Source of the DNA: Halosimplex litoreum
GTDB lineage: Archaea > Halobacteriota > Halobacteria > Halobacteriales > Haloarculaceae
Assembly (NCBI RefSeq): GCF_016065055.1
Contig: NZ_CP065856.1
Location: 2,603,836 to 2,667,835, forward strand
Length of the DNA stretch: 64,000 bases
Direction: 5' to 3'
In this document: piece by piece, positions 53,399-62,686 of the stretch
Numbering within the stretch: the stretch's first letter is position 1
Layout of the letters: every line of letters begins with the position of its first letter
Translations under genes and position numbers: made by a program
The notes under the pieces: model-generated
The model's database searches: none
What the model was told of the DNA's origin: nothing
Seen by the model: the letters and a program-made list of their open reading frames with translations, nothing else

Positions 53399-53457
53399 CG
53401 GTCCGCGACGAGGGAGCGCGTTCGCTGTGCGACTGAGAGAATCGAGGAACCGCAGGA

Positions 53458-53560
53458 CGCCACCGCCAGGACTCGAACCTGGGACAACCTCGTGTCTGCG
53501 GCACGCAGGTCACCTGCGCACCCTAACAGCGAGGTGCTCTACCAACTGAGCTACGGCGGC
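53458..53560 (-). tRNA. tRNA-Asn (GTT) with 30-nt intron
   Basis: The minus strand folds as a full tRNA: acceptor GCCGCCG with CGGTGGC plus G discriminator, D arm GCTC...GAGC, anticodon stem CCTCG/CGAGG, and T arm with GGTTCGAGTCC. The anticodon loop CTGTTA-A carries GTT (Asn). A 30-nt intron (53494-53523) lies after position 37, the standard archaeal place, and its partial pairing is consistent with a bulge-helix-bulge site for the splicing endonuclease. A TATA-like box at 53587-53594 precedes it. No CCA is encoded. Confidence 0.95.
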
Positions 53561-57899: not shown

Positions 57900-59387
57900 T
57901 CAGAACACGTCGTCGGCGTCGAGTCGGTCGTCGGCCATCGCGCCGCGGACGGTCACTTCCTGCCCGAGCGTCAGCGCCGCGTCGGTGTCGACCTGCATCG
58001 TCTCCTGACCGTCGTCCAGGATGACCGGATCGCCAGTCTGAACGACCGTCCCCGTGAACTCCACCTCTTCCGCCGCGGCCGCCGCGGCCCCACCGTCGGC
58101 GCCCCCACCGGCCGACGCCGCCCCCTCGGACCCGCCGTCGCCGCTCGTGCCGGAGTCGGCGCCGTCACCGTCACCGGTGAACGCGCCGAGCCCGGCGTCC
58201 GACCCGCTCGAACCCCCACTCCCGCCGCTCGCACCCGACCCGGACCCGCCCGGCGAGGGTGCGGCCGAGCCCGCACCGGTGTCCTCGTCGAGGACGACCA
58301 CCGTCGACTGCCAGCCCGCCGACGCCTCGAGGTCGTCCTGCCAGCCGTCCTGGATCTCGGCGTCGGCGACGAACACCTCGTCGCCCGGCGCGATCTCCTT
58401 GTCGGCTTTCTCGCCCCACAGCGCCACCCGGATGTCGCCCGTGTCGTCCTGCACGCGGATGTTCCGGACCTGCCCCTCCGAGCCGTCGTCGCGGTCGAAG
58501 GTACGCTTTGGGTCGGCCGAACGGACGACGCCGGCCAGATCGACCACCTCGTCCATCTCCACGGCGCCGACGGCGTCGGCCTCCGGCGTGAACTCGACGG
58601 TCTCGTCGATCTCGTCGATCGCCCCGTGGTCGCCGACGTGCAGCTCCAGATCGCCCTCCCGCTCGCGGACGTAGCCGTCGACCACCTCGACGGCCGTGCC
58701 GGGTTCGAGCTCCGTCGCGCGGTCGGCGCGGTCGTCCCACATCGTCACGCGCACGCGGCCGGTCTCGTCGCCCAGTAGCAGGTTCGACACCTTCCCCTCC
58801 GACCCGTCGTCGCGGTCGAACGTGCGGATCGAGTCCGTCTCCAGGACGATCCCCCGGACGTTCACGTCCGATTGGCCCATCGTCAGTGCGTCGACGGTCG
58901 ACCCGTCGCCCAGTTCCACGTCGATCTCGGCGTCGTCGTCCGGTTCGGCCTTGTCGACGGAGACTTCGAGGCCGTTGTAACCGTCTTTCGGGCGGCCGGC
59001 GATCCGGAGGACCTGCCCCTCCTCCAGTTCGCCCTCGACCACGGACTCGGCCTGCTGGTCCCAGAAGGCCAGCCGGACGGTACCGGTCTCGTCGGCCGCT
59101 TCGACGTTGGCGACGCGCCCGTCCTCGTCCTCGCCGTCGCGTTCGAACGTGCGCAACTCACCGATCGAGACCACCTTCGCGAGGAACTTCACCTCCTCCA
59201 TGCCCGGTTCGATGTCCGCGACGGTGTCGACTTCCCCTTCGTTGAGCTCGTGGGCGAGCAGCATCGCCGCCGTCTCCTCGTCCGCGAGCCCGCCCATCTG
59301 CTCGACTTTCTCTTCGACGGCCTCGCGGAACTCCTCCTCGGAGACGTCCGTATCCAGATCCGCGTAGACCTCCTCGATCGCTCCCAT
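57900..59387 (-). CDS. Replication protein A (single-stranded DNA-binding, three OB folds)
   Basis: A 495-aa acidic SSB of the archaeal RPA type. Three OB folds are clear: about 70-155 (FLAKVVSIGELRTFERDGED), 178-265 (GIVLETDSIRTFDRDDGSEG) and 283-365 (GVVRSADPKRTFDRDDGSEG). Each ends with a conserved TGxxRVxxWD-like strand. A Gly/Ser-rich linker (about 375-435) precedes a fourth short OB-like tail. No Cys is present, so it lacks the zinc finger of some RPA1s. I chose the ATG at 59387; the preceding Met is six codons upstream. As I recall, H. volcanii rpa2 is also beside its histone gene. Confidence 0.93.
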   Translation of the reverse strand: MGAIEEVYADLDTDVSEEEFREAVEEKVEQMGGLADEETAAMLLAHELNEGEVDTVADIEPGMEEVKFLAKVVSIGELRTFERDGEDEDGRVANVEAADETGTVRLAFWDQQAESVVEGELEEGQVLRIAGRPKDGYNGLEVSVDKAEPDDDAEIDVELGDGSTVDALTMGQSDVNVRGIVLETDSIRTFDRDDGSEGKVSNLLLGDETGRVRVTMWDDRADRATELEPGTAVEVVDGYVREREGDLELHVGDHGAIDEIDETVEFTPEADAVGAVEMDEVVDLAGVVRSADPKRTFDRDDGSEGQVRNIRVQDDTGDIRVALWGEKADKEIAPGDEVFVADAEIQDGWQDDLEASAGWQSTVVVLDEDTGAGSAAPSPGGSGSGASGGSGGSSGSDAGLGAFTGDGDGADSGTSGDGGSEGAASAGGGADGGAAAAAAEEVEFTGTVVQTGDPVILDDGQETMQVDTDAALTLGQEVTVRGAMADDRLDADDVF

Positions 59388-59651
59388 TAGTATAGCCGTT
59401 GGCATGGTTGCGCTCCGCTTAAGCGTTGTCGTTGGCCCGCTACCCCGCCCTCGTCGCTCGATCTCGTCGCGCCTTCGAACGCCGATAACGCCGGCGTGTC
59501 GACGGTCCGCCTCGCCCCTCTCGCGTTCATGATCCGGGTTGGTCCGGGCTTCGGTGATAAAGTCGAGGGTGGTCGGCGGGTTCGCGCGGGCGCCGGTCGG
59601 GTCGCAGGCGCTCGACGGCCCCCGACGAGCGCAACCGTGCGCGGCCGGACG

Positions 59652-60308
59652 CTATCGGGACTCCGAGGTGACGCGCGTGTCCTCGCCGTCGTGGCCGTGG
59701 ACGACGACGACCTCGCGGGGGAGCGCGCTGTCGAGCGCCACTGTCGCCTCGTAGTCGATCTCGGTGAGACACTCGGCGCACATCGTGTCGGTGTCGGCGT
59801 CGGATTCGGCACCGACGACGACGGTGAGCGTCCCACCGTCGAGGCGAACGTCCGACAGGACGGCCGTGTAGCAGGCGTCCGACCCCCAGGTCGTCCCCGT
59901 CACGGTGACCGTGCCGGCGTTTCCGTCGAAGCCGACCGAGGCGTCGTCGGTCTGACCGCCGCAGCCGCTGTCGGTCACTTCCAGCGACGAATCCGTGACC
60001 CCGCTGGGCGTCGCCGACGGCTCGCCGTCGGGCGTCTCGCTCACGGTATCCTCGGGCGAGTCGCTCGGCGTGGCGCTCGGGTCGTCGGTTCCGTCGGGGT
60101 GTGGCTCGGTCACGGTATCGCCGTCTCGGTCGGGCGTCACCGCCGGGTCGGTGGTCGCGGGGTCGTCGGACGGCGTAGCGGCCGGTTCGTCGGTGTCGGC
60201 CGGTTCGTCGGTATCGGTCGGTTGGCCGCCGGGTCCGTCGGACAGACAGCCGGTCAGGGCGAGCGTGCCCGCGGCGCCGAGGCCGCGGAGGAGGGTGCGT
60301 CGCTTCAC
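59652..60308 (-). CDS. Tat-exported lipoprotein with Thr/Asp/Pro-rich stalk
   Basis: A 218-aa protein with a twin-arginine lipoprotein signal: MKRRTLLRGLGAAGTLALTGC, lipid Cys21. About 85 residues of TDEPADTDEPA-like low complexity follow as a spacer. The C-terminal domain (about 110-215) is beta-rich with several Cys (SGCGGQTDD, DACYTAVL, MCAECLTEIDY) that could form disulphides on the outside of the cell. Function is unknown. It is transcribed convergently with the 60391 promoter region and not obviously operonic. Confidence 0.85.
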   Translation of the reverse strand: MKRRTLLRGLGAAGTLALTGCLSDGPGGQPTDTDEPADTDEPAATPSDDPATTDPAVTPDRDGDTVTEPHPDGTDDPSATPSDSPEDTVSETPDGEPSATPSGVTDSSLEVTDSGCGGQTDDASVGFDGNAGTVTVTGTTWGSDACYTAVLSDVRLDGGTLTVVVGAESDADTDTMCAECLTEIDYEATVALDSALPREVVVVHGHDGEDTRVTSESR

Positions 60309-60390
60309 GACGTGACAGACGAGCGGTCGGATAAAGGGCCTTGTCGACGTTCAAGCGATCCTTTGACACTGCCCGGACGGATCGTAACCC

Positions 60391-60400
60391 CTTTACAATC
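60391..60400 (+). promoter_or_regulatory. TATA box of the tRNA-Arg gene
   Basis: ctttacaatc lies 22-31 bp upstream of the mature tRNA 5' end at 60422. Confidence 0.6.
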
Positions 60401-60421
60401 AACCGCGGTACGTAGAAGTGA

Positions 60422-60494
60422 GTCCGGGTAGGGTAGTGGACTATCCTCTTGGCTTGCGGAGCCAGGGACCGGAGTTCGAATCTCCGCTCGGACG
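60422..60494 (+). tRNA. tRNA-Arg (GCG)
   Basis: A 73-nt tRNA: acceptor GTCCGGG with CTCGGAC plus G discriminator, D arm of GG..CC type, anticodon stem TTGGC/GCCAG with loop TTGCGGA (anticodon GCG, reading CGC/CGT), and T arm CGGAG-TTCGAAT-CTCCG. No intron and no encoded CCA. Its 3' terminal segment recurs downstream. Confidence 0.96.
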
Positions 60495-60622
60495 TTTCTG
60501 CCGACCGCAACACGACGAGCGTAGCGAGGAGTCTGCGGTCGGCGAAACTCCACGCGGAGATTGGAGCAGACCAGTGGCAGCCCGCGCAGGGAGCGTAGCG
60601 ACCGAGCAGGAACCTCTGGGCA

Positions 60623-60705
60623 AGTTCGAATCTCCGCTCGGACGTTCACTTCGTTCACGACCGACGAGCCCAGCGCTCGCACCGCTCGCGCTGGACTCCG
60701 CTCGG
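60623..60705. repeat. 82-83 bp direct repeat, copy A (contains tRNA-Arg 3' end)
   Basis: Begins agttcgaatctccgctcgga (the last 20 bp or so of tRNA-Arg) and continues through cgttcacttcgttcacgacc and ctcgcgctggactccgctcgg. The same stretch recurs at 60845-60927, 222 bp away, with almost no change. It looks like duplicated attachment-site DNA or a remnant of one. Confidence 0.9.
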
Positions 60706-60844
60706 ACGTTCCTTCGCGAACTACGCCGCGAGCGACTGTTCTGTCGCTCGCATCCGTGAGCAAGCGACCGTCCCGAGGAGATTCGAGCAGGGAAGTCGCA
60801 CGCCCGGGAAGCGACCGCAGGGAGCGACCCGGAACGTCTTCACG

Positions 60845-60927
60845 AGTTCGAATCTCCGCTCGGACGTTCACTTCGTTCACGACCGACGAGCCCAGCGCTC
60901 GCACCGCTCGCGCTGGACTCCGCTCGG
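60845..60927. repeat. 82-83 bp direct repeat, copy B
   Basis: Second near-identical copy of the repeat at 60623-60705. The tRNA-derived part is 60846-60868. Between copies A and B (60706-60844) there is no recognisable gene. Confidence 0.9.
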
Positions 60928-61018
60928 GCGGTTCCGTTCGGTCGTCACTCGCCGAGCGTCGCGTCTATCCCGAAGAGGAGAGGTTCGGACGGCCGGCGAC
61001 GGCGAGCGAACGTCCCGC

Positions 61019-61738
61019 TCAGGCGAACCTGTCGATCAGGTAGCCGCCGACGGCGCCGAGCCCGGCGTTGATCGCCAGCGCGACCAGTTCGGCGACGACG
61101 ATGACGCCGACCAGGACGGCGCCGCCCGCGAGCTGACCGATCGCGTCGGCACCGGCGAGGAACCCGCCCGCGACGGCCACGAGCAGCGGGACCGTCAGCA
61201 CCCAGCCGACCAGTCCGGCCACGGCGCCGATACGCAGGCCGGACCCGCTCTCGCCGTACAGGTACGCCGCGGCCCCGCCGCCCGCGACCGCCGCCCCGGG
61301 GATGAACGAGACCAGCGCCGTCACCGCGGCGCCGTAGACGGCGCAGGCGCGGAACGTCGCGGTCGTTCCGCCCTCGCGGGTGACCCGGCGACGGGTACGC
61401 CGGCGAGCGACGACGAACGCCGCGGCGACGGCGACCAACAGCAGTCCGGTCACGGCGAGCCCGGCCGCGAACCAGTCGACGAACGGGACCCCGGCATCGA
61501 TCGCTTCCGCGGGCGTCAGTCCGTTTACCTCGACCTCCTCGCTGGTGACGAAGTCGGCGATCAGCGCCCGGTCGACGCGAGCGTACATCGCGGCGCCGAC
61601 CGCCGTCAGCGCGAGTCCGATCAGTCCGGTCACGATACCCAGCAGCCAGTCGACCGCCGCCGGCACCGGGTCGCGCCCGTCCGTCGGTTCGTCGGCCGCG
61701 GGTCGACCAGCGTCGTGTACGGTATCTACGTCCGTCAT
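61019..61738 (-). CDS. DUF5518-like membrane protein
   Basis: A 239-aa membrane protein with about five or six hydrophobic helices. An N-terminal acidic segment (MTDVDTVHDAGRPAADE) precedes the first (VDWLLGIVTGLIGLALTAVG). An extracytoplasmic-looking loop (ARVDRALIADFVTSEEVEVN) and a Gly/Ala-rich C-terminal half follow (AVAGGGAAAYLYGES, AGFLAG-like turns). The Gly-rich helices resemble the haloarchaeal DUF5518 family. Function unknown. Confidence 0.8.
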   Translation of the reverse strand: MTDVDTVHDAGRPAADEPTDGRDPVPAAVDWLLGIVTGLIGLALTAVGAAMYARVDRALIADFVTSEEVEVNGLTPAEAIDAGVPFVDWFAAGLAVTGLLLVAVAAAFVVARRRTRRRVTREGGTTATFRACAVYGAAVTALVSFIPGAAVAGGGAAAYLYGESGSGLRIGAVAGLVGWVLTVPLLVAVAGGFLAGADAIGQLAGGAVLVGVIVVAELVALAINAGLGAVGGYLIDRFA

Positions 61739-61852
61739 ATCTACCGATAGACACCCCGAGTAATTATACCTGCAAGCCGCGCTTCTCGGCCGGAAGAGCG
61801 GCGAGTGATTTAAGTACCCTCACAGAACGAGCCGCAGATTCGGGGGTTGGAG

Positions 61853-62686
61853 TCAGTAGTCACCCAGGACGCCGAGCCGTCGAGCGCGGCGGGTCGCCAG
61901 TTCGAAGACGACGTAACCGAGACCGAGGTAGACGGCGGCGACACCGACGAGGACGGCGAGGTCGAGGGGGGCGAACTCCCAGAGACGAGTCCCGTCGATC
62001 ATCGCCCGCTGGAGGAGTGCGCTGCCGTGGGCCAGCGGGAGCAGTCGCGTCCAGCCCAGGTCGAACGCGGGCGCGGAGATCAGCACGACGAACCCGAACT
62101 GGAGGAGGTTCAGCCAGTTACCGATCTGCTTGTAGAGGACGGTGATCCCGCCGGCGGCGAAGCCCAGTCCCAGGACGGAGACGACGCTGAGTCCAGCGAC
62201 GACGACCACGGTGAGGACGGGCACCCCGAGTCCGGTATCGGTGATCGCGAGCATCACCGCCAGGATGACCGCCGAGGTGAGGAACGTGCGGACGAGCTTG
62301 GCCACGCCTTTCAGCAGCGCGACGGGTGCGAAGCCGAACGGCGTCATGACGTGGCGTTCGAGCGTGCCCCACTGGACCTCGCTGCCGATGTCGTTGGAGA
62401 TCGAGGAGTACGCGCCGACCGAGAGCGTCCAGAGGAAGTAGCCGACGACGATCCCCGCCAGCGAGTCGGTGAGCGCCCGTCCGGCGACCATCTCCCCGCC
62501 GTAGAACAACAGGCCGAAGAAAAACAGCGAGACGACGATCCCCCCGATAGCGTTGGCCGGGTAGCGGACGAAGATCAGATACTCGCGGTAGAGCACCTGT
62601 TTCGCGAGTTCGGCGTAGGTCGCCCGCTGGGGGGTGACGCCCGCGTCGAGGCTCGTCTCGCTCGCGTCGAGGCCCGCGTCGCTCAT
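61853..62686 (-). CDS. ABC-2 type transporter permease
   Basis: A 277-aa permease with about six membrane helices. ELAKQVLYREYLIFVRYPAN at the N-terminus matches the ABC-2 family. Its start overlaps the stop of the ATPase gene by 4 nt (ATGA). It shares a two-gene exporter unit with that ATPase. Substrate unknown; ABC-2 systems export drugs, lipids or polysaccharides. Confidence 0.9.
   Translation of the reverse strand: MSDAGLDASETSLDAGVTPQRATYAELAKQVLYREYLIFVRYPANAIGGIVVSLFFFGLLFYGGEMVAGRALTDSLAGIVVGYFLWTLSVGAYSSISNDIGSEVQWGTLERHVMTPFGFAPVALLKGVAKLVRTFLTSAVILAVMLAITDTGLGVPVLTVVVVAGLSVVSVLGLGFAAGGITVLYKQIGNWLNLLQFGFVVLISAPAFDLGWTRLLPLAHGSALLQRAMIDGTRLWEFAPLDLAVLVGVAAVYLGLGYVVFELATRRARRLGVLGDY

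Follow-up and report, generated by a model that had tools for sequence, protein, structure and literature searches.

The last nucleotides of a tRNA-Arg gene recur several times directly downstream of that gene in a halobacterial contig of 4.16 Mb. Does this array record sequential integrations and excisions of integrase-bearing elements, as proposed in a preliminary description, or does it have another origin? The window analysed here is the whole 64-kb stretch of DNA around the locus (positions 2603836-2667835 of the contig).

The array behind tRNA-Arg(GCG)

The tRNA-Arg(GCG) gene is followed by four units, each terminating in a copy of the 3′ end of that tRNA: two hairpin units and two shorter ones, called minis hereafter (Table 1). 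The last 21 nt of the gene, GTTCGAATCTCCGCTCGGACG, recur exactly at the end of both hairpin units; the preliminary description had noticed these recurrences as those of a 23-bp tRNA end. The 82-83 bp repeat that it reported at an offset of 222 bp is also real (129 nt at 88%, spacing 222) and corresponds to the copy of tRNA positions 53-73 plus the 64-bp mini behind it. The 13-nt copies at the ends of the two minis and the two inverted T-arms had been overlooked. The counterpart of the first mini occurs alone in a congener (G007).

Table 1. Features of the tRNA-Arg(GCG) locus, in window coordinates
Feature	Position	Strand	Description	Basis
tRNA-Arg(GCG)	60422..60494	+	putative target gene; copied segment 60474-60494 = positions 53-73	ARAGORN, Rfam RF00005
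Hairpin unit 1	60495..60644	+	150 bp; hairpin 60495-60548, inverted T-arm 60555-60567, core hairpin 60568-60623, direct copy 60624-60644	covariance-model match 60554-60637
Inverted T-loop/T-stem copy, unit 1	60555..60567	-	CGGAGATTGGAGC, 2/13 mismatches	DNA fold
Direct copy, unit 1	60624..60644	+	exact copy of tRNA positions 53-73	
Mini unit 1	60645..60708	+	64 bp; terminal 13-nt copy of tRNA 61-73, CTCCGCTCGGACG, at 60696-60708	
Hairpin unit 2	60709..60866	+	158 bp; hairpin region 60709-60775, inverted T-arm 60776-60788, core 60789-60845, direct copy 60846-60866	covariance-model match 60775-60859
Inverted T-loop/T-stem copy, unit 2	60776..60788	-	AGGAGATTCGAGC, 2/13 mismatches	
Direct copy, unit 2	60846..60866	+	exact copy of tRNA positions 53-73	
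Mini unit 2	60867..60930	+	64 bp; terminal degenerate 13-nt copy CTCCGCTCGGGCG (60918-60930), with a mismatch	
Native trailer of tRNA-Arg(GCG)	60931..61018	+	actcgccgagcgtcgcgtc, similar to the sequence directly 3′ of the tRNA in the unit-less congeners G002 and G003	

Both hairpin units of the window match a covariance model built from the units of this genome (61 bits, E ~3e-15 in the 64-kb window), a score that is not independent on its own as both belong to the training set of the model. The units contain no notable ORF, and the tRNA is the sole match of meaningful score in an Rfam cmscan of positions 59000-62000. No tyrosine recombinase is encoded in the window. Elsewhere in the window, a tRNA gene on the minus strand (53455-53560) is read in two ways: ARAGORN without introns predicts a tRNA-Cys(GCA) at 53455-53534, and ARAGORN with introns, together with the Rfam span, a tRNA-Asn(GTT) of about 103 nt.

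A hairpin family behind the tRNA genes of Halobacteriales

In this genome, 18 of the 47 tRNA genes have their own 3′ end repeated downstream (at most 4 mismatches out of 21). With at most two mismatches, such repeats are present for 16 of the 47 tRNAs, compared with 3 of 2162 control pairs associating a tRNA with the locus of another one, which rules out chance repeats. The units of the genome measure 97-243 bp, and the core of the window units is common to those located at its other tRNAs. With the covariance model, a threshold of E ≤ 0.001 yields 30 copies in this genome; among these listed copies, 27 lie at most 300 bp downstream of a tRNA gene, one is located behind a 9-kb integrase element at tRNA-Ile and two are elsewhere. 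The same approach identified units in 37 of 40 relatives, mostly 8 to 33 in each. In a phylum-wide sample, 51 of the 53 Halobacteriales genomes possess units and the 242 genomes from outside the order possess none, a count made on partly incomplete genomes with strict filters that weak copies outside Halobacteriales could escape.

Units were found behind about 30 tRNA isoacceptors in dozens of genera, in arrays of up to five (L190 and L201), and many tRNAs are devoid of them. Present in almost all halophilic archaea, with up to about 30 copies in a genome, they rank among the most regular features of the tRNA loci of these organisms. When plasmids were searched with the consensus, the sole convincing copy lay behind a plasmid-borne tRNA-Val; two short additional matches look like unrelated GC-rich hairpin tips and were discarded. 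Core hairpins lacking a tRNA copy were observed in two ordinary intergenic places, L078 (G000 1070460-1070535), directly behind an apparent aspartyl-tRNA synthetase gene, and L132 (G006 2123125-2123190). We found no earlier description of this gene-less hairpin family, of which the window holds two members, in the open full-text literature, where searches retrieved tRNA-targeting integrases and proviruses instead.

In each unit, a variable hairpin precedes the inverted T-arm; the conserved core hairpin, NNNAGTCG...CGTCTNNN, comes next, and a direct copy of tRNA positions 53-73 closes the unit. The limits of the direct copy are sharp: among 166 distinct copies, identity to the parent tRNA sets in at position 52/53, rising from about 0.3 at position 51 to 0.96 at position 53, remains between 0.92 and 1.0 over positions 54-73 and drops to 0.58 just past position 73. 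Compensatory changes support the structure: in the first 20 aligned units, changes on both sides affect 11 pairs and 48 cells, compared with 18 cells in shuffled alignments, and the covariation score is 0.35, compared with 0.15 after shuffling and at most 0.125 after sliding. Alignments fitted to a model are biased towards its structure, and the counts behind the main pair statistics were therefore repeated with a simple pattern search, which still demands the AGTCG and CGTCT motifs. Of the 164 cells formed by the two innermost variable pairs of the core stem (82 distinct cores), which adjoin AG/CT, 154 are Watson-Crick; all four pair types are represented, and two cells are G-U and one A-C. 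The core stem AGTCG/CGTCT also holds one fixed T-T mismatch, which is found at unrelated tRNAs. Of 145 cores, 115 have a C-GNA-G triloop on the sense strand and 4 on the opposite strand, compared with about 14 in a shuffled set; this triloop corresponds to an extraordinarily stable type of DNA mini-hairpin (PMC4686876).

GC-rich hairpins are common in these genomes, and the units could be by-products of replication, i.e., palindromes that arise when replication switches template at the T-arm, that slippage multiplies and that quasi-palindrome correction keeps symmetrical, with neither recombinase nor function. Such a process would account for inverted arms that follow the tRNA, for the near-perfect Watson-Crick symmetry and for the tandem arrays. 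However, it leaves unexplained both the conserved core with its fixed T-T mismatch (AGTCG/CGTCT) at unrelated tRNAs and the clean insertion with a complete 53-73 copy, and we consider it improbable. The inverted arms differ from their own tRNA by 2.68 mismatches out of 13 and from other tRNAs by 3.97. In this genome, the units at tRNA-Gly(CCC) and tRNA-Ser(GGA) have a common core of about 66 bp, flanked in each case by arms that fit their own tRNA. Either the core was exchanged alone by conversion or the arms were rewritten after transfer, and this is the most puzzling feature of the family.

The minis represent a second class (class II) of about 60-65 bp that copies only tRNA positions 61-73 and includes a hairpin of its own and often an inverted copy of the acceptor end, these traits being judged by eye. 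We listed 28 candidate places for such minis (for instance L197, L166 and L013), some of them nested inside class I units. In L084 and in L112 (the Asp locus of G006), the class II insert breaks the class I copy at tRNA position 61-63: this copy stops after GTTCAAATCCC and resumes with CCCGCCTCGGGCG.

Gain, loss and integrase elements at shared sites

The tRNA-Arg(GCG) locus was compared in eight genomes of the genus. Three of them (G002, G003 and G005) have no unit at the orthologous position and provide the empty sites that the preliminary description had suggested to look for. Among the others, G007 exhibits one mini only, G004 a truncated unit, G006 one unit and two minis, G001 two units, and G000, the genome of the window, two units and two minis. 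The intact junctions are located at tRNA-end copies, and similar trailers follow the last copy in several congeners. At tRNA-Ala(CGC), the site is empty in G003, where tagcggtttttcgttcccgcgaactatccgg directly follows the tRNA; in G006, a 130-bp unit is followed by tcccggtttctcgtctctgcgaactatccag, which is related to tagcggtttttcgttcccgcgaactatccgg, and the 30 bp upstream of the tRNA are identical in these two genomes. A single mini is present at this locus in G000. More generally, unit presence differs among G000, G006 and G003 at many tRNAs with similar upstream sequences, including the Ala-CGC, Arg-GCG, Phe, Gly-CCC and Glu-UUC loci.

This variable occupancy between congeners points to insertion and loss rather than to a fixed function at given tRNAs, for which we found no support. 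Judging from these sequence comparisons, the units have very probably been inserted and lost as discrete elements. The part of the initial proposal that invoked repeated gain and loss of DNA at the 3′ end of the tRNA is supported by these data (zero to two units across the eight genomes of the genus). In contrast, the units are not the featureless scars of integrase elements, but a structured, gene-less family with a conserved core present at many tRNAs.

Integrase-bearing elements nevertheless use the same tRNAs, and several of them sit between a tRNA and its unit, so that both kinds of insertion share sites. The end of the integrase gene adjoins the unit at the tRNA-Ile of the genome studied here, at tRNA-Tyr and tRNA-Met of G006 and at tRNA-Ala of G008. 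For instance, a 9-kb element encoding a tyrosine recombinase (G000 908.1-917.3 kb; L302 and L003) is inserted between tRNA-Ile(GAT) and a hairpin unit. The repeated core of this element is a 26-bp tRNA end, and its attR has no hairpin and starts at a tRNA position unlike that of the units. In L188 (4275-7516, G227), a hairpin unit stands on either side of a 3-kb integrase element at tRNA-Gly(TCC), and the two units are identical, as if the attachment region of the element included the unit. L188 had been our best candidate for a gene-bearing cassette; it turned out to be an integrase element of the ordinary kind, whose right end bears a partial tRNA copy.

Since such elements leave 3′-end copies at these very tRNAs (Ile, Tyr, Met and Ala in the above genomes), the units could be relics of tRNA-targeting integrase elements of the SNJ2 or pR1SE type, left after excision or deletion and homogenised by gene conversion, which was the view of the preliminary description. 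Repeat-mediated deletion between partial tRNA copies has been described in Haloquadratum (PMC3119063), and the two identical units of L188 would fit this scenario. However, the remains of diverse elements would not have one covarying core at about 30 tRNA species in dozens of genera, and the attR of the tRNA-Ile element differs from the units in its lack of a hairpin and in its starting point. The shared core argues against ordinary attR scars as the main cause; this reading is largely refuted, and we retain it with low probability.

Archaeal integrative elements that target tRNA genes (SSV, pNOB8, pT26-2, SNJ2; PMC8371274) are similar to the units in that they use the 3′ part of the tRNA, restore the tRNA and produce a distal direct copy. 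Direct copies of the tRNA 3′ end and empty sites in relatives are both observed for the units. Unlike these elements, the units carry neither integrase nor cargo, measure about 100-200 bp, contain a conserved hairpin and restrict their direct copy to positions 53-73 in class I and 61-73 in class II, to which an inverted copy is added. No integrase gene is present between the tRNA and the distal copy, units of 97-243 bp being too short to encode one. Like REP/BIME and other repeats related to IS200/IS605, they are short, non-coding, hairpin-forming, numerous in each genome and probably moved in trans, but they exhibit no apparent link with Y1 transposases, include a 21-bp copy derived from the target and are strictly linked to tRNAs. 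They share with haloarchaeal MITEs a small size, the absence of genes and a presence that varies between relatives, whereas they lack fixed terminal inverted repeats and short target duplications, their termini being those of the host tRNA.

Neither the content of the window nor presence/absence comparisons linked a recombinase to the units. The numbers of integrases (PF00589) do not separate genomes with and without units, and each of the ten genomes tested encodes Y1 transposases (PF01797), whether it has units or not. The scores of three integrases encoded elsewhere in this genome are far below the cut-offs for integron integrases.

Folded form and putative mode of movement

Folded as DNA, the sense strands of the two window units have z-scores of -2.6 and -3.6, compared with -1.0 and -2.1 for their complements; folded as RNA, the units reach -4.0 and -4.7. 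These fold energies do not decide between DNA and RNA. Changes creating G-U (24) or A-C (28) are about equally frequent in the long outer stem, which therefore does not discriminate between the two either. In the core, the scarcity of G-U pairs and the strand-specific triloops lean towards DNA as the folded form, although GNA loops are not exclusive to DNA.

If RNA were the folded form, the unit would be a structured trailer co-transcribed with the tRNA and involved, for instance, in termination, in 3′ processing or as a small RNA pairing with the T-arm, and the complementarity of the inverted arm would be kept through selection on RNA pairing. The strong RNA fold, the sense orientation directly behind the tRNA, the strong covariation, the conserved core and the presence of the family in nearly all Halobacteriales are all in line with this proposal. 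It is difficult to reconcile with G-U in only 2 of 164 cells of the two most variable core pairs, which is unusually few for RNA, and with the erratic presence of units at the same tRNA in congeners, in rows of one to five, many tRNAs being empty. Moreover, units are in places parted from their tRNA by large integrated elements and match no Rfam family. We consider an RNA trailer rather unlikely.

The reading to which we give an even chance is that the units are non-autonomous mobile hairpin elements, whose site, folded from single-stranded DNA, would be recombined at the T-loop of tRNA genes by a recombinase acting in trans. Both the folding as DNA and the movement by a recombinase are inferred here from the features described above. 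Owing to the direct copy of tRNA positions 53-73 present in each hairpin unit, the tRNA would be left intact after insertion, as with other tRNA-targeting elements. On the inner side of this copy, the inverted T-arm, the core hairpin and the T-arm again form a long imperfect palindrome. The working form would be the sense strand as single-stranded DNA, whose folding would create a double-helical recombination site: the T-arm stem and a small internal loop would be followed by the AGTCG/CGTCT stem, with its fixed T-T mismatch, and by a variable tip. This folded site could then be exchanged with the T-loop of the tRNA gene (G53/T54) by a recombinase provided in trans, much in the way that integron attC hairpins are recombined at G^TT. 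Arrays would result from repeated insertion combined with unit loss, through recombination of one 21-bp copy with another, and with conversion among units.

Integron attC sites are imperfect palindromes made of a stem, an internal loop, a mismatched stem and a variable tip, with outer arms meeting at G^TT and a 3′ arm common to the target site, and they occur in tandem arrays. The units resemble attC sites and ORF-less cassettes in all these respects: palindrome layout, G^TT arms, 3′ arm shared with the target and tandem arrays. A fold of the attC type (two paired boxes, an unpaired spacer and a variable tip) is found in the 20 aligned units and the 82 distinct cores. In contrast, the attC core site RYYYAAC...GTTRRRY is replaced by GAWTYGAAC...GTTCRAATC, a sequence set by the tRNA T-loop. 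The units also differ from integron cassettes in targeting tRNA T-loops rather than attI, in having GTTCRAA instead of GTTRRRY as R box, in lacking cassette genes and an adjacent integron integrase, and in having arms that follow the host tRNA. The analogy is one of architecture: neither the core-site consensus nor the integrase places the units in the attC group.

A more specific version of the mobile-hairpin reading can be put forward tentatively, although we regard it as less probable than its general form: an integron-like, gene-less system in which a host recombinase would insert single-stranded DNA hairpins into the T-loops of many tRNAs, the arms being rewritten for each target. Transfer of a core between tRNAs must involve re-matching of the arms, which goes beyond simple site-specific recombination. 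Counting against mobile hairpins are this re-matching, the absence of a recombinase tied to the units, the GTTCRAA sequence found in place of the integron R box GTTRRRY, the location of the one convincing plasmid copy behind a plasmid tRNA, and the absence of free copies in IMG/VR (searched with a strict pattern only) and in phage records (searched with one consensus as query).

If the units do move as folded DNA, they would represent an archaeal counterpart of attC recombination with tRNA genes as landing sites. For the detection of proviruses, a 3′-end copy downstream of a tRNA gene is usually taken as attR; many such copies in these genomes are not. We also observed dense groups of tRNA-like genes, with about a dozen of them in a few kb (G006 2778898-2783297 and G003 5114186-5116692), possibly of viral or plasmid origin.
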